Assembly (NCBI GenBank): GCA_947589435.1
Contig: CANQBI010000018.1
Location: 1-32,486 of the forward strand
From: an uncultured Bacilli bacterium
GTDB taxonomy: Bacteria > Bacillota_I > Bacilli_A > RF39 > UBA660
Direction of reading: 5' to 3'
DNA length: 32,486 nucleotides
How positions within the stretch are numbered: position 1 is the first letter of the stretch; every line of letters starts with the position of its first letter. Below the pieces are notes generated by a model. That model saw nothing but the letters and a program-made list of their open reading frames with translations, was not told the origin of the DNA and did not search any database. The position numbers were made by a program, and so were the translations under genes. Shown in pieces: positions 3,854 through 10,058 of this stretch.

Positions 3854-4386
3854 TGGATTTAAATACCGAAGTGAAAATGCAAAAAGCCATTGAGGCTTTA
3901 GATACTAAAATGACCAGTATTAGGGCCGGAAGGGCCAATCCTTCAATGCTTAATGGTTTAATGGTCGAATACTATGGCAGTATGACTCCGATTAATAGTA
4001 TTGCGAATATTACCGTTCCCGAAGCTAAACAATTATTTATTAAACCATTTGATAGAAGTGCTCTTAAAAATATTGAGAAAGCGATTAATGAATCTAATTT
4101 AGGAATTGCTCCCAATAATAATGGGGAAATGATTATTTTAACTATTCCAGAACTTACGGAAGATAGAAGAAGAGAATATGTTAAAATGGCTAAGTCATTA
4201 GGAGAAGAAGCTAAAATTGCTTTAAGAAATATAAGACAAGAAGATAATGATAAGATTAAAAAGGAAGAACTTCCGGAAGATGAAGAAAAATTATATTTAG
4301 AAGATGTTCAAGAATTAATTAATAAATATAATAAAATAGTTGATGAAAAAGTTAAAGAAAAAGAAGAAGAATTAATGAAGATATAA
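3853..4386 (+). CDS. frr: Ribosome recycling factor
   Basis: Splits post-termination ribosomes together with EF-G. The family pattern is complete over 177 aa, slightly short of the usual 185: an N-terminal helix with TKMTSIRAGRANPSMLNGL, the domain II strand region VEYYGSMTPINSIANITVPEAKQLFIKPFD, and the C-terminal helices with LTEDRRREYVKMAKSLGEEAKIALRNIRQE. The start ATG at 3853 shares its A with the upstream TAA stop and has GGAGG at 3841-3845. The neighbourhood is unusual: no pyrH, tsf or uppS; it is embedded behind two envelope proteins. Confidence 0.97.
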   Translation: MDLNTEVKMQKAIEALDTKMTSIRAGRANPSMLNGLMVEYYGSMTPINSIANITVPEAKQLFIKPFDRSALKNIEKAINESNLGIAPNNNGEMIILTIPELTEDRRREYVKMAKSLGEEAKIALRNIRQEDNDKIKKEELPEDEEKLYLEDVQELINKYNKIVDEKVKEKEEELMKI

Positions 4387-5045: not shown

Positions 5046-5795
5046 ATGAATGAAAATAATAACAATGAATTTGAAAATGAAAATGAAGTAAAACAAGAAC
5101 CAAATAATAAACCAAATTTTGATGATTTTAGTTATGGTAAAAATGCTAAGAAAGCTTTAATACCAATGTTTGTAGGCTTATTTACAATGGTGTTACTTAC
5201 GGTAGGAGCAACATGGGCATATTATAATGTAACAATTTCAGGCAGTGCATCTTCTACATCAGTAGGTACTACAATGGGTGCACAAAATGTTGTTACAATA
5301 TCTGGCGGAAAGGGAACTTTGGCACTTAATTTGAGTGCAGAGAATATGTCACAAACTACTGCTGGTAGTAGTGGTAAAGTTTGGTATGCCTCTGCAAATG
5401 GTACTCCTAGTGATGCTAAATATGAAGCAAATGTAGCTACTGCTACGTTAACAACAGGTCAATCTGCTACTTGTACATATACATTAAAGATTACTAACAC
5501 AAATAAAACTTTATATACAGCATATCAAACATTACAAAATAAAGCACTTGGTGAGATTGTATTAACAGTTGATGGCGTTGACTATGATTTATCTAAAGCA
5601 GATACAGATCTTTCTGCAATATTTGGCAATGGTTTAACTATAACAAATAAATCTATTACTTTAAATAGTGGTACAAATAAAACGAAAAATATTATGGCAA
5701 GTTTTAAATTTACAAATACCGCAAAGGACCAATCCTCACTTGCAGGTAAGGGTATGGCTCTTACGGTATCAACGGAGGCATGGAATTGTAAATAA
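5046..5795 (+). CDS. SipW/TasA-like secreted protein, paralogue 1
   Basis: 249 aa. An acidic, Asn-rich cytoplasmic leader of about 35 residues precedes one hydrophobic helix ending in GATWAYYN, the hallmark of SipW-cognate (TasA/CalY-like) signal peptides. The mature part is Ser/Thr/Gly/Asn-rich and beta-strand-like, with two cysteines (TCTYTL, and AWNCK at the very end) that could form a disulfide. A dedicated signal peptidase is not in the window. It shares order and motifs (leader, WAY, TCxYT, KDQS, final Cys) with the next gene, so the two are paralogues. In this family such proteins form fibres or surface layers; that role here is inference. Ribosome site AAAGGTAGGG at 5028-5037; expressed from the duplicated promoter. 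Confidence 0.8.
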   Translation: MNENNNNEFENENEVKQEPNNKPNFDDFSYGKNAKKALIPMFVGLFTMVLLTVGATWAYYNVTISGSASSTSVGTTMGAQNVVTISGGKGTLALNLSAENMSQTTAGSSGKVWYASANGTPSDAKYEANVATATLTTGQSATCTYTLKITNTNKTLYTAYQTLQNKALGEIVLTVDGVDYDLSKADTDLSAIFGNGLTITNKSITLNSGTNKTKNIMASFKFTNTAKDQSSLAGKGMALTVSTEAWNCK

Positions 5796-5936: not shown

Positions 5937-6614
5937 ATGAATAATAATGATAGAATAGGTGATGCAAAAAAAGCATTAGTTCCTGCGCTTGTTGCTGTTA
6001 TTGTATTAATTGGTTTAGTAGTAGGAGCAACATGGGCTTATTTTACAGTTAAAGTTGATAATAAAGTGACTCAAACAACTGCATCAGCAAATACTCCAGA
6101 AATTCCGTTAGTAACGTTAAATGGAGGAGTAAGTAAATTATCTATGAGTTTAACAGCAGATGATATGGCAAGTGCAAACCAAAAAACTTATTATGCTGGT
6201 GAAAATGGTAAGGTTGAATCTCAAATTGCTCCTACTATTGCGACGGTTACATTAGATAAAGATAAGATAAATACTTATACTTGCAGTTATACAATTACCG
6301 CAAAGGTTTCAGCAGAAAATGAGTCATTAATTAGTGCATATACTTCTAAATCAGCAACTAATACTGGAGAACTTATTTTAAAATTAAATAATCAATCTTA
6401 CGATTTAGCTAATACTTCCCATAATACTGCGATATTAAGTGATTCAGGTTTATCTTATAGTGGTACTATCGAGGTTAAACCTAGTGTACCAACTAATTTA
6501 ACAGCACAACTTAGTTTAGCTAATAATAATAAAGATCAATCATTTCTTGCCAACACTTCAGCAATAATTAATATAAGTGCAAAGATAACAACTTGTAATC
6601 TAAAAACATCTTAG
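5937..6614 (+). CDS. SipW/TasA-like secreted protein, paralogue 2
   Basis: 225 aa. The leader is short (KKALVPAL), followed by a hydrophobic helix ending in GATWAYF, the SipW-type signal peptide. The mature part has the same elements as the gene at 5046: NGGVSKLSMSLTADDMA, YTCSYTITAKV, ELILKLNNQSYDLANT, NNKDQSFLA, and a terminal TTCNLKTS with the second cysteine. Predicted secreted, beta-rich and repetitive in composition. It has its own promoter. The ribosome site is weak (GAAAGTTGG). No partner genes (SipW, export) are visible. Role as fibre or matrix protein is inferred from the signal peptide class. Confidence 0.8.
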   Translation: MNNNDRIGDAKKALVPALVAVIVLIGLVVGATWAYFTVKVDNKVTQTTASANTPEIPLVTLNGGVSKLSMSLTADDMASANQKTYYAGENGKVESQIAPTIATVTLDKDKINTYTCSYTITAKVSAENESLISAYTSKSATNTGELILKLNNQSYDLANTSHNTAILSDSGLSYSGTIEVKPSVPTNLTAQLSLANNNKDQSFLANTSAIINISAKITTCNLKTS

Positions 6615-6623
6615 TAAAATATA

Positions 6624-6652
6624 TTGACAATTTCTTAATTTCTATGTATATT
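6624..6652 (+). promoter_or_regulatory. Promoter of the AbiF leader and gene
   Basis: -35 TTGACA (6624-6629), 17-bp spacer, -10 TATATT (6647-6652). Predicted RNA start near 6659, giving a leader of about 90 nt that contains a terminator-like hairpin. Confidence 0.8.
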
Positions 6653-6658
6653 AGTATA

Positions 6659-6736
6659 TAGAAAAGGACAAGAGGTTAGAAAGAATAATTAATTGAAGAC
6701 ATGGGATAGGTTGTATATCTTATGTCTTTTTCTTTT
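6659..6736 (+). ncRNA. Leader RNA ending in an attenuator hairpin before abiF
   Basis: From the predicted RNA start to a long hairpin, 6696-6708 pairing with 6716-6728 (13 bp, two G-U), loop GGTTGTA, then TTTTTCTTTT. The T-run ends right at the AGGAGG ribosome site of abiF (6737-6742). Most transcripts would thus stop as a RNA of about 75 nt, and read-through would give abiF mRNA. The leader is purine-rich (GAAAAGGACAAGAGGTTAGA). It may be an attenuator or a further small RNA of the module. Confidence 0.6.
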
Positions 6737-6750
6737 AGGAGGAATTCATT

Positions 6751-7608
6751 ATAAAAGAAGCTAAAACTAATGAAGAATTAATTAATCACTTAATAACCAA
6801 AGGTGTCAAAGTTAAAAATAAGAAGAAAGCTCTTAAACTATTAGAGAGATATTCTTATTATGCCATTGTAAATACTTATAAAGATGTTTTTAAAGTAAAA
6901 GGGAAATATATTAATGGGGTTACTTTTGAAGAAATATATGCTTTATATGAGTTTGATAAAAATATTAAAGCAATATTTTTAAAATATACTTTAGAGATAG
7001 AATTAATTATTAAAGCTTTATTGGCCAATACGATATCAGAAAAGTATGGAGTAAAGGATTATTTAAAAACAAGTAATTTTGATTCTAAGGCAGATTTAGA
7101 AGAAATTAAAAAGTTAAGAAATAAAATTAATAAAGCAATTAAAAATAATTATGGTAAACACGAAGCAATTACTCATTATAAAGATAAATATGGATTTATT
7201 CCTCCTTTTGTTTTAGTAAAAGTATTAACTTTTGGGGAAATAAGTAAATACTATGGTTTATTAAAACAAAGTGATAGACAAAAGATAAGTAAGTATTTTA
7301 AGTTGTCGGATAAAGAGTTGAGGCAAATGCTTTTGAATATTACTCTTGTGCGCAATTTATGTGCCCACAGTAATAGACTTTATACGTATAGAAGTAGATT
7401 CTTTGTGAATGTGGATAAGCCAAATAGAAATTATCGAGAGTATATAAAATCAACTGATTTATATATGATTACTAAATGTATGGAAATATTATTAGATGCT
7501 AAAAGTTATAATAAATTATTAAAAGATTTTGAAAAAGAAATTAAGAAACTTAGTAAAAAATTAAAATGTATAGATATAAATAAAATTTTAAATATGATGG
7601 GATTTTAA
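6751..7608 (+). CDS. abiF: AbiF/AbiD (Abi_2) family HEPN protein, non-AUG start
   Basis: Abortive-infection protein, a candidate HEPN RNase toxin. The frame is open from 6748 and the family pattern runs through it: KTNEELINHLITKGVKV, the YYAIVNTY region, NGVTFEEIYALYEFDKNIK, LTFGEISKYYGLL, and the HEPN motif RNLCAH (R201-x4-H206, bases 7351-7368) followed by SNRLYTYR. There is no ATG or GTG before 7021. The TTG at 7021 would remove the first third of the domain. AGGAGG (6737-6742) sits 8 nt before an ATA (6751) and 5 nt before an ATT (6748), so translation probably begins at ATA or ATT; length about 285 aa. This may be a mutated ATG. Two tandem ncRNAs follow. Confidence 0.85.
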   Translation: MKEAKTNEELINHLITKGVKVKNKKKALKLLERYSYYAIVNTYKDVFKVKGKYINGVTFEEIYALYEFDKNIKAIFLKYTLEIELIIKALLANTISEKYGVKDYLKTSNFDSKADLEEIKKLRNKINKAIKNNYGKHEAITHYKDKYGFIPPFVLVKVLTFGEISKYYGLLKQSDRQKISKYFKLSDKELRQMLLNITLVRNLCAHSNRLYTYRSRFFVNVDKPNRNYREYIKSTDLYMITKCMEILLDAKSYNKLLKDFEKEIKKLSKKLKCIDINKILNMMGF

Positions 7609-7610
7609 GT

Positions 7611-7629
7611 AAATAATAATTATTTTTTT
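7611..7629 (+). terminator. Weak AT-only terminator after abiF
   Basis: AAATAATAATTATTTTTTT: a short A/T stem with seven T. Too weak to be sure. Confidence 0.35.
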
Positions 7630-7692
7630 GCATATAATATTAATGAAATTAATAAAAATGTTCAATTTTATTAAAAAATGTTACAAAAATGA

Positions 7693-7720
7693 TTGACATT
7701 TTCAATAAATTGGGTATAAT
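7693..7720 (+). promoter_or_regulatory. Promoter of AbiF-linked ncRNA 1
   Basis: TTGACA (7693-7698), 16-bp spacer, TATAAT (7715-7720): full consensus hexamers. Confidence 0.9.
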
Positions 7721-7727
7721 TAAATTA

Positions 7728-7799
7728 ATTGGTACTTAGGAAACTTTCGAAGCCTTAAGTCGTCGAATACTTGGCACTTCGGTGCTGGGTATTTTTTTT
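7728..7799 (+). ncRNA. AbiF-linked structured ncRNA, copy 1
   Basis: About 70 nt. The 5' stem-loop pairs ACTTAGG (7734-7740) with CCTTAAGT (7753-7760, one bulge), enclosing AAA and a small CTT-TCG-AAG hairpin. The 3' hairpin (7766-7793) has 12 bp closed by a C(UUCG)G tetraloop and ends in eight T, so it is also the terminator. 31 nt (7732-7762) are identical to copy 2. No ORF. Own consensus promoter. By position and form it is the candidate RNA antitoxin of AbiF; recent work has described AbiF proteins paired with neighbouring ncRNAs and proposed them as ancestors of Cas13. The pairing here is inferred. Confidence 0.85.
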
Positions 7800-7830
7800 A
7801 TAAAAAATTTCACAAATGTATCAAATGTGC

Positions 7831-7858
7831 TTGACACATATTATAAAATGAGTATAAT
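7831..7858 (+). promoter_or_regulatory. Promoter of AbiF-linked ncRNA 2
   Basis: TTGACA (7831-7836), 16-bp spacer, TATAAT (7853-7858). Same hexamers and spacing as the promoter of copy 1, but the spacer sequences differ. Confidence 0.9.
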
Positions 7859-7865
7859 TATAAAT

Positions 7866-7940
7866 GAGCAGTACTTAGGAAACTTTCGAAGCCTTAAGTC
7901 GACCGGGTTACTGGCACTTCGGTGCTGGGCTCTTTTTTTT
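7866..7940 (+). ncRNA. AbiF-linked structured ncRNA, copy 2
   Basis: Same architecture as copy 1: identical 31 nt at 7871-7901, a variable linker of about 10 nt, then the TGGCAC-TTCG-GTGCTG terminator hairpin and eight T (7933-7940). The base of the 3' stem differs from copy 1 on both sides (copy 1 AATAC with GGTATT; copy 2 GGG with GCTC), which keeps pairing. That compensatory change supports an RNA that is selected for its fold. Confidence 0.85.
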
Positions 7941-8019
7941 AATATTTATTTTACAATTTAATGTACTTTAAGATAGTTTAAATAAGTTATTTATGATATA
8001 TTATTTATAGGTGGTAGTA

Positions 8020-8679
8020 ATGGTTTTAGTAATAATTATTATACTTATATGTTTATTTTTAATATTTATAATGTTTAAATCATATAAAGAAAATGAATTT
8101 AATATGTTTGGTTATAATTTGGGTAAATATTTACTTAGACCTATTTTTAAGTTATATTACCCTTATAAAGTTATTAATAAATTAAAAGTACCAGAGAATG
8201 GTCCGGTTATCTTTTGTTGTAATCATATTCATTTTATGGACCAATTCTTAACGGTTATAGAATCAAAAAGACCTATTCATTATTTAGCGAAAAATGAATA
8301 TTTTTTAAGTAAGAAAACTAAATGGTTTTTTGCGGGAACTGGTTGTATTCCGGTTAATCGGAGTATTCATGATGAAAATGCTAAAGATAAGGCTAGAGAA
8401 GTTTTAGATAAAGGATTATGTTTAGGAATATTCCCAGAAGGAACTAGAAATAAAACGAAAAAAATATTATTGCCTTTTAAATTTGGGGCCGTATCTTTAG
8501 CGAAAGAAAAGAATGCATATATAATTCCTATCGGAATTACAGGTCATTATAAGTTTAGAACAAAAGATTTAAGAGTAAACTATGGAGAGGCTTATAAAAT
8601 AGAAAGTGATGACTTAGAAAAAGAAAATAAAAAGTTAGAAGATAAAGTTTTAAGTTTAATAAAAGAGGCGAAGAAATGA
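8020..8679 (+). CDS. plsC: 1-acyl-sn-glycerol-3-phosphate acyltransferase
   Basis: Makes phosphatidic acid from lysophosphatidic acid at the membrane. 219 aa with an N-terminal membrane helix. Family motifs: block I NHIHFMDQ (H-x4-D), block II region TGCIPVNRS, block III FPEGTRNK, block IV IIPIGITG. The frame also opens with GTG at 8011, but AGGTGG (8009-8014) lies over that codon and is correctly spaced for the ATG at 8020. The TGA stop overlaps the murF ATG (ATGA), so plsC, murF and ddl form a coupled operon. Confidence 0.93.
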   Translation: MVLVIIIILICLFLIFIMFKSYKENEFNMFGYNLGKYLLRPIFKLYYPYKVINKLKVPENGPVIFCCNHIHFMDQFLTVIESKRPIHYLAKNEYFLSKKTKWFFAGTGCIPVNRSIHDENAKDKAREVLDKGLCLGIFPEGTRNKTKKILLPFKFGAVSLAKEKNAYIIPIGITGHYKFRTKDLRVNYGEAYKIESDDLEKENKKLEDKVLSLIKEAKK

Positions 8680-10058
8680 ATATTTATTTAAAAGATTTAG
8701 TAAGAGTATCGGAGGGTATTTTAATTAAAGGAGATAATGCTACTTTAATTAATTCTTTTTCGATTGATACGAGAACTTTAAAAAAGGGGGAAGTTTATTT
8801 AGGTATTAAGGGTAGTATAGTAGATGGTAATACTTTTTATAAAGAGGCCATTACAAAGGGTGCTAGTGGGTGTATTTTAGATAAAAATACAGATGTTGAT
8901 AGGGAATTTTTAAAAGATAAAGATGTTTTTATCTTACTTGTGGATGATGTAATTTTATCTTTACAACAAATTGCTACTTATAAAAGAAGTAGGTTAAATA
9001 TTCCAGTTGTGGCTATCACAGGTAGTGTGGGTAAAACGAGCACTAAAGATATGGTAGCAAGTGTTTTAAGTACCAAATATAAAGTTTTAAAAACCGAAGG
9101 AAACTTAAATAATCATTTAGGACTTCCTTTAACGATTATGAAATATTTAGATGAAGATATTATGGTTTTAGAAATGGGAATGAATAACTTAGGAGAGATA
9201 AGAGTTCTATCCAATATTGCGAAACCCACTTTAAGTGTTATTACGAATATTGGAACCTCACATATTGGTAATTTAGGATCAAGAGAAAATATTTTAAAAG
9301 CTAAACTAGAAATCCTAGAGGGTATGGATGAAAAAGTTTTAGTTATTAATAATGATAATGATTTGTTACATAACTTAAAGATAGATGGGAAAATTATTAC
9401 TTATGGAATTAATAATAAAAGTGATTATAATGCCTATGATATTAAATATAATTTAGATAATTTAACTTATAAAATTAATTTATTAGATTGTACCGAAGAA
9501 ATTAAAATAAATGTACCAACAGAAAGTTTTGTGTTAAATAGTTTAGGTGCTTTAAGTGTGGGAATGTATTATGATATAGAGATAGATAAAATAAAAGAAG
9601 GATTAGAGACCTTTAAATTATCAAGTAATAGAATGGAAATAGAAAAGATAAATAATATAACATTTATTAAAGATTATTATAATGCGAGTGTAGATTCTAT
9701 TAATAGTACTCTTAGTTATTTAAGTAATTTAAAGGGAAGAAAGATAGCCGTTTTAGGGGATATGTTAGAATTAGGAAAGTACTCTAAAAGTTTACACGAA
9801 ATGGTTGGTAAGAGTGTATATGAAAAAGGAATAGACATTTTAATTACGGTAGGTAATGATGCTAAGTATATTGCGGATGAAGCTTTAAAATTAGGCTTTA
9901 ATAAAAATAATATTTTTACATATATTCATAATAGAGAAGCTTCTTTAAAACTATTATCAATATTAGAGAGTGGTGATATAGTTTTACTTAAAGCTTCTCA
10001 TGGAATGAATTTTAAAGAGATTTATTCCTTAGTAAAGGATGGTTTAAAAAATATTTGA
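8676..10058 (+). CDS. murF: UDP-MurNAc-tripeptide--D-Ala-D-Ala ligase
   Basis: Last cytoplasmic step of peptidoglycan precursor synthesis. 460 aa, usual length. Seen: the N-terminal substrate domain with SIDTRTLKKGEVYLGIKG, the Mur P-loop GSVGKTS (residues 116-122), TEGNLNNHLGLPLT, MVLEMGMNNLGEI, the C-domain IKDYYNASVDS (the DxYNA/NP motif) and AVLGDMLELGKYS. ATG overlaps the plsC stop (ATGA), and its own TGA overlaps the TTG start of ddl. Confidence 0.97.
   Translation: MNIYLKDLVRVSEGILIKGDNATLINSFSIDTRTLKKGEVYLGIKGSIVDGNTFYKEAITKGASGCILDKNTDVDREFLKDKDVFILLVDDVILSLQQIATYKRSRLNIPVVAITGSVGKTSTKDMVASVLSTKYKVLKTEGNLNNHLGLPLTIMKYLDEDIMVLEMGMNNLGEIRVLSNIAKPTLSVITNIGTSHIGNLGSRENILKAKLEILEGMDEKVLVINNDNDLLHNLKIDGKIITYGINNKSDYNAYDIKYNLDNLTYKINLLDCTEEIKINVPTESFVLNSLGALSVGMYYDIEIDKIKEGLETFKLSSNRMEIEKINNITFIKDYYNASVDSINSTLSYLSNLKGRKIAVLGDMLELGKYSKSLHEMVGKSVYEKGIDILITVGNDAKYIADEALKLGFNKNNIFTYIHNREASLKLLSILESGDIVLLKASHGMNFKEIYSLVKDGLKNI

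Follow-up and report, generated by a model that had tools for sequence, protein, structure and literature searches.

Does an abiF gene that is followed by two small RNA genes form, together with them, an RNA-based toxin–antitoxin module, and if so, how are the two parts kept in balance? The question is raised by a locus in a stretch of 32,486 nucleotides from an uncultured Bacilli bacterium, referred to below as ‘the window’. An initial annotation, made from the letters alone, proposed such a module. After profile searches, structure prediction and comparison with related genomes, we consider a toxin–antitoxin or abortive-infection module of the AbiF kind the probable answer (roughly 0.8). Part of the interest of an AbiF protein and its RNA lies in the proposal that AbiF is the ancestor of Cas13 (PMC12737573).

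The protein is a plain member of the Abi_2 family, and the Abi_2 pattern and intact R-x4-H motif first noticed by eye are both borne out. It matches the Pfam family Abi_2 (PF07751) with E=3.6e-43 and 148.4 bits, above the gathering score (cut-off 25.6), and the PADLOC AbiD profile with 1.1e-57. Its HEPN motif reads RNLCAH, the R, N and H of which are invariant in 38 homologues. An AlphaFold2 (AF2) model with a pLDDT of 93.3 gave one clear match in Foldseek, PbAbiF–ncRNA (8vz6; E=1.6e-11), and VIA-align superimposed the two over 265 of 285 residues with a Z of 22.9 and an rmsd of 2.3. At protein level, then, the predicted fold is like that of PbAbiF in the PbAbiF–AbiFr structure (PDB 8vz6, PMC12737573), with the HEPN residues in place, at a sequence identity of ~21–22%. 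Cas13d chains come next in VIA-align (Z 7.5–8.9), and at high Z the AbiF-like folds found there were limited to 8vz6 and Cas13. The order, 8vz6 and then Cas13d, is suggestive of the AbiF–Cas13 link, with which it fits, although helical folds can reach the Z values of Cas13d by chance. A search of IMG/VR returned 5 distant AbiF relatives (26–38% identity) and none that was close, and the Abi_2 proteins in phage and plasmid records were all distant from the AbiF of the window. The features of the locus are collected in Table 1.

Table 1. Coordinates of the abiF gene, the two RNA genes and their signals in the window
Feature	Position	Strand	Source
abiF promoter, TTGACA-17-TATATT, 11/12	6624..6652	+	promoter scan
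Leader hairpin and U-run, terminator-like attenuator (putative)	6695..6735, hairpin 6695-6729	+	hairpin scan
Shine-Dalgarno AGGAGG, 8 nt 5' of AUA	6737..6742	+	sequence
abiF (Abi_2, HEPN), 285 codons, AUA start	6751..7608	+	Pfam, PADLOC, fold, comparison
HEPN catalytic motif RNLCAH	7351..7368	+	alignment of homologues
CATATAATATTAATGAA, vestige of a -10-like element found ahead of the downstream RNA copy in relatives; no motif directly after	7631..7647	+	
RNA gene 1 promoter, TTGACA-16-TATAAT, 12/12	7693..7720	+	promoter scan
RNA motif copy 1	7732..7761	+	repeat search, covariance model R1
RNA gene 1 terminator, UUCG loop	7765..7799, hairpin 7765-7794	+	hairpin scan, folding
RNA gene 2 promoter, TTGACA-16-TATAAT, 12/12	7831..7858	+	promoter scan
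RNA motif copy 2	7871..7900	+	repeat search, covariance model R1
RNA gene 2 terminator, UUCG loop	7911..7939, hairpin 7911-7928	+	hairpin scan, folding

The two RNA genes downstream of abiF were described from the start as having consensus promoters, and these, perfect sigma-70 promoters, are indeed the best two among the 17 promoter-like sites of the region. The 31 identical nucleotides said to be common to both RNAs were also recovered (7732–7762 and 7871–7901), and consist of a 30-nt motif plus one base. Terminator-like hairpins number three in the region, one of them (in the abiF leader) absent from the initial annotation, against 0.2 expected from shuffles, and the predicted transcripts of both genes are ~70–75 nt long. 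The base of the UUCG-capped terminator stem had been thought to co-vary between the copies. This holds in part: the base pairs well in unit 1 (GAAUAC/GUAUUU) and weakly in unit 2, and it is the upper stem that is compensatory across related units (GGCAC/GUGCU, GGCGU/AUGCU). Unit 1 folds as motif hairpin plus terminator with z = -2.4. Unit 2 as a whole, in which the motif hairpin is still present, folds no better than shuffles (z = 0.29), so that the case for structure rests on comparison and not on folding energy.

The motif begins with G followed by U or C, continues into a 7-bp outer stem that encloses the core AAA-CUU-NNG-AAG-C, and ends with a C that pairs with the first G. AAA forms a bulge on the 5' side, CUU and AAG form an inner stem, and the C of the core is a 1-nt bulge on the 3' side. 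In 22 distinct copies, standard pairs occupy all of the pair cells (242/242), and six of eight outer pairs have changes on both sides. None of 500 shuffles reached the covariation score, and slid controls were at most 56% paired. The covariation agrees in a larger set of 150 copies, 39 of them distinct, in which the 7-bp outer stem is 100% paired; this alignment was made to the model and so is biased towards it, although, the motif being gapless, the alignment is trivial. The core is almost invariant, and the sequence of the stem varies, even where two copies share a locus. This is what we would expect if the protein reads the core and the stem needs only to pair. In RCd22, the antitoxin RNA of a Clostridioides difficile AbiF, mutations that restored the stem kept antitoxin activity (PMC12373285).

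A link to the published abiF RNA family of Rfam, RF03085, found no support. Over 6600–8020, Rfam at E<=10 returned sub-threshold matches alone, far below gathering scores, and RF03085 itself had no match in the window at E<=10. At E<=0.001 it was found in none of 145 genomes of the same taxonomic family, where no control genome matched either; the model does find RCd22 of phiC2. Like the motif described here, that of RF03085 is a short hairpin with an asymmetric internal loop, situated beside abiF genes, but it has a 6-bp outer stem, a 1-nt 5' bulge, an AGC/GCU inner stem and a 6-nt 3' bulge. The window motif differs in its 7-bp stem, in its AAA bulge, which is on the 5' and not the 3' side, in its CUU/AAG inner stem, and in its invariant bases. 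The RNA is thus of a class absent from Rfam, although it may already figure in work on the evolution of AbiF published in Cell in 2025. Having a further putative antitoxin RNA, of another structure and with a near-invariant core, permits a direct test of the RNA features that AbiF proteins read.

A covariance model built from the motif copies (R1) matches 45 of the 145 family genomes and 120 of 385 genomes of the order. In a sample of 392 genomes from the phylum, it matches five genomes of the window's family and, outside that family, only two, both in its class. One of these two (G686, locus L202) encodes a divergent AbiF, with RNACAH as its motif, and then, in the manner of the window, an RNA that has a promoter and a terminator to itself; in the other (locus L200), the R1 match accompanies a decayed abiF.

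To see how the RNA is placed with respect to the gene, we compared 80 homologous loci from public assemblies, mostly of uncultured gut Bacilli (rabbit, goat, roe deer and chicken) and including Candidatus Onthousia; all genomes compared are metagenome assemblies. The closest abiF homologues, in the same family, have the same RNA element beside the gene, and the R1 motif occurs at 79 of the 80 loci. The broader claim, that the gene belongs with AbiF proteins having adjacent ncRNA antitoxins, on the branch of the presumed Cas13 ancestor, draws support from this linkage, from the covariation, and from the family and predicted fold of the protein. Typically, relatives carry one copy on each side of abiF rather than two in tandem downstream: 71 of 80 loci have exactly one motif 49–68 nt before the start codon and one 16–38 nt after the stop. 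The leader copy has a promoter upstream and leads without a linker into a U-run, so that hairpin and U-run could together serve as a terminator. A conserved TATAAT-like element stands ahead of the downstream copy, after which a separate terminator hairpin is common. Three genomes (G362, G280 and G139) have four to six motif copies each, and larger arrays are possible in them.

The window and three other loci, L101 (98% identical), L102 (88%) and L103 (76%), make up a small variant clade, all members of which lack the leader copy. The leader hairpin that occupies its site (AAGACAU..AUGUCUU) is found in the window, L101 (in two copies), L102 and L103, with few differences and with pairing kept. 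In the window, L101 and L103, the RNA is encoded by stand-alone genes, each with its own promoter and terminator. In L102, abiF has no RNA beside it, and the sole RNA found in that genome is a solo copy (L194) on another contig. L101 is at the same chromosomal site as the window, with the same downstream gene, and comprises two abiF genes and five RNA units. Positions 6615–7944 of the window align at 96.6% with its second abiF gene and first two units, and positions 7670–8700 with its later units and flank. Judged from these alignments, the two loci are expanded and contracted forms of one tandem array, and the change could have run in either direction. We regard the two-sided architecture, the solo RNAs described below, and a clade with uncoupled RNA genes and an AUA-started toxin, as new features.

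The usual position of the leader copy, upstream of the start codon and ahead of a U-run, and the terminator-like form of its stem, suggest another explanation, namely that the motif acts chiefly in cis: AbiF would bind its own leader and control termination, a form of autoregulation, and the RNA would not be an antitoxin acting in trans. We think this unlikely. In the window, L101 and L103, a leader copy is lacking and the RNA is encoded in free-standing genes; most other relatives have a second copy beyond the stop codon; and solo copies persist where there is no abiF at all. Moreover, the two roles are compatible, and they coexist in RCd22 (PMC12373285).

How abiF is translated is less obvious. 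There is no ATG, GTG or TTG near its Shine-Dalgarno sequence, a point absent from the initial annotation; the first, a TTG at 7021, comes 90 codons in, and a stop just 5' of the Shine-Dalgarno closes the frame ahead of the AUA. We place the start at this AUA (6751), with AUU at 6748 as a less likely alternative. The want of a standard start, and the presence of decayed abiF copies among the relatives, might be taken to mean that the gene is dead, its start codon lost and its antitoxin RNAs surviving beside it. That is very improbable, and we have rejected it on start codon conservation, Shine-Dalgarno spacing and dN/dS. The AUA is kept in the window, L101 (both genes), L102 and L103, at 76–98% protein identity and at a near-constant distance from a strong Shine-Dalgarno; other relatives begin with AUG or UUG, except that L163, of a separate lineage, has AUA too. 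Furthermore, dN/dS over codons 2–93 is 0.06–0.09 in the pairs window/L102, window/L103 and L102/L103 (dS 0.19–0.59), and this stretch before the first standard start, being under strong purifying selection, must therefore be translated. In Staphylococcus aureus, AUA and AUU starts yield ~10% of the output of AUG or, in a second medium, up to 30% (PMC13009471), which makes a translational brake on abiF a plausible role for AUA here. A conserved AUA start would be an unusual brake for a toxin gene.

Returning to the toxin–antitoxin module, the sequences establish its anatomy, the linkage of RNA and gene, the covariation, the conserved AUA and the purifying selection, and we infer binding, inhibition, toxicity, trigger and attenuation. 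Most likely, by analogy with RCd22–AbiF and PbAbiF, the RNAs bind AbiF and block its RNase activity. AbiF would be a HEPN RNase, probably a homodimer. Each ~70-nt RNA, made from its own strong promoter, would present one motif, and AbiF would bind the AAA/C internal loop and the CUU-NNG-AAG mini-hairpin within the outer stem, and so be held inactive. Three features would keep the RNA in excess: its genes are present in two copies and have strong promoters, a terminator in the leader would restrict transcription of abiF, and the AUA start would lower the translation of abiF. Were RNA synthesis or stability to fall (e.g. on phage infection), AbiF would be set free to cut RNA, and growth would stop. 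Counted against the module are the mismatch to RF03085, the absence of an adjacent RNA in L102, the leader position of the motif in most relatives (which would suit an attenuator acting purely in cis as well), the fold of unit 2, and the reliance on metagenome assemblies.

The nearest parallel is AbiF–RCd22 of the Clostridioides difficile phages phi027 and phiC2 (PMC12373285), in which AbiF arrests growth and RCd22 binds it directly, neutralising it both in cis and in trans. The two systems have in common an Abi_2 HEPN protein, a small RNA with short stem-loop motifs, a sigma-A promoter, a terminator that limits abiF expression, and two motifs per toxin. RCd22, however, is a single upstream transcript with two RF03085 motifs, whereas the window has two separate RNA genes downstream and an abiF that starts with AUA. 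In PbAbiF, one RNA is bound per monomer (PMC12737573), which would fit the two RNA copies of the window. Type III toxin–antitoxin systems (ToxIN, TenpNI and CptNI) likewise pair a toxic protein with a small antitoxin RNA in repeats, transcription of the toxin being limited by a terminator, and a repeated small-RNA gene adjoins the toxin gene here too (two copies in the window; 79/80 loci). Their toxin fold differs from that of HEPN AbiF, a structural difference stated in PMC12373285, and their antitoxin RNA lies 5' of the toxin in one unit, with the terminator between; the RNAs of the window are downstream and have their own promoters. Most relatives, unlike the window, do have a leader copy with a U-run.

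With Cas13, the effector of type VI CRISPR, the likeness is one of HEPN fold, and the window has no spacer array. That the RNAs are guide-like, primitive crRNAs with the 9–10-nt linker between motif and terminator as a targeting spacer, is hardly credible and we have rejected it. In its favour are the proposed descent of Cas13 from AbiF (PMC12737573), the rank of Cas13d as the best fold match behind 8vz6, and the short arrays that the units form. But a repeat with a variable spacer of roughly fixed length is not what is found: the linker (9–11 nt) varies freely among paralogous units, forms the base of the terminator stem in unit 1, and is absent from leader copies, which enter the U-run directly. 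A role of the linker in specificity, about which the initial annotation asked, is not supported either.

Copies of R1 also occur in genomes that have only a distant, ‘core’ Abi_2. We compared the flanks of 18 such orphan copies, and of the one from the L102 genome, with those of 90 full loci. Nine of these solo RNAs have a leader-type 5' flank (with promoter) and a downstream-type 3' flank (with terminator), abiF being missing from between; the reciprocal combination occurs in none of the 19. Of the others, four are leader-type on both sides, five have only a leader-type 5' flank that is recognisable, and one, beside an abiF remnant, is downstream-type on both sides. Three solos (L090, L093 and L094) occupy a site where other genomes have full loci: a match to full loci of ~1 kb or longer extends upstream of them, around ppdK, and in L093 and L094 the match resumes further downstream. 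The simplest reading is that abiF was deleted by recombination between the flanking RNA copies, the product of which would possess the leader promoter, the motif and the downstream terminator. In any single case an assembly artefact is possible, but several of the solos are diverged in sequence from all known full loci. If the assembly is complete there, the solo copy of the L102 genome (L194) would fit antitoxin action in trans.

We suggest, tentatively, that flanking RNA copies are a safe exit, recombination between them removing the toxin and leaving a complete antitoxin gene. Solos, comparable to solo LTRs, might then shield the cells that carry them from related AbiF toxins, or act on an AbiF from another locus, as in the L102 genome; the clade of the window might represent a second solution, with toxin and antitoxin uncoupled and the toxin damped by AUA. 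The flanking architecture and the solos thus raise a testable question, how a toxin can be lost without self-poisoning, and the solos make it testable, too, whether an antitoxin RNA on its own gives protection from incoming modules.

Loci with abiF or a solo RNA lie 3' of the end of ppdK in 14 of 101 cases (L138, L144, L148, L155, L172, L174, L179, L086, L089, L090, L093, L094, L095 and L039), and so does L200. Short repeats resembling the end of ppdK recur further downstream in several loci, and the 3' end of ppdK is likely to be an insertion hotspot with attachment-like repeats. At L170, L120, L128, L129 and L162, abiF has internal stops and the flanking RNA motif is intact.

Abi_2 matches were found in 136 of the 145 family genomes. 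The core Abi_2 (~31–40% identity) occurs in nearly every one of them, including the window's (G000:C46, loci L002 and L041) and those of relatives L028–L037. It is directly 5' of a gene for an HtrA/trypsin-like protease in most of the loci inspected by eye, with no RNA motif nearby, and looks like a vertically inherited, housekeeping Abi_2. The genome of the window (G000, 1.44 Mb) has five Abi_2 genes in all (contigs C46, C15, C32, C40 and C18). A third, degenerate copy of the motif, without the G-C closing pair and bulged U, lies on the minus strand of contig C40 at 4027–4054 (L039), between a further Abi_2 gene and the operon of an ABC transporter. In the window itself, directly 5' of abiF, positions 5046–5795 and 5937–6614 encode two paralogous proteins whose N-terminal transmembrane segment is followed by a ‘GATWAY’ stretch and which, by eye, are TasA/camelysin-like.
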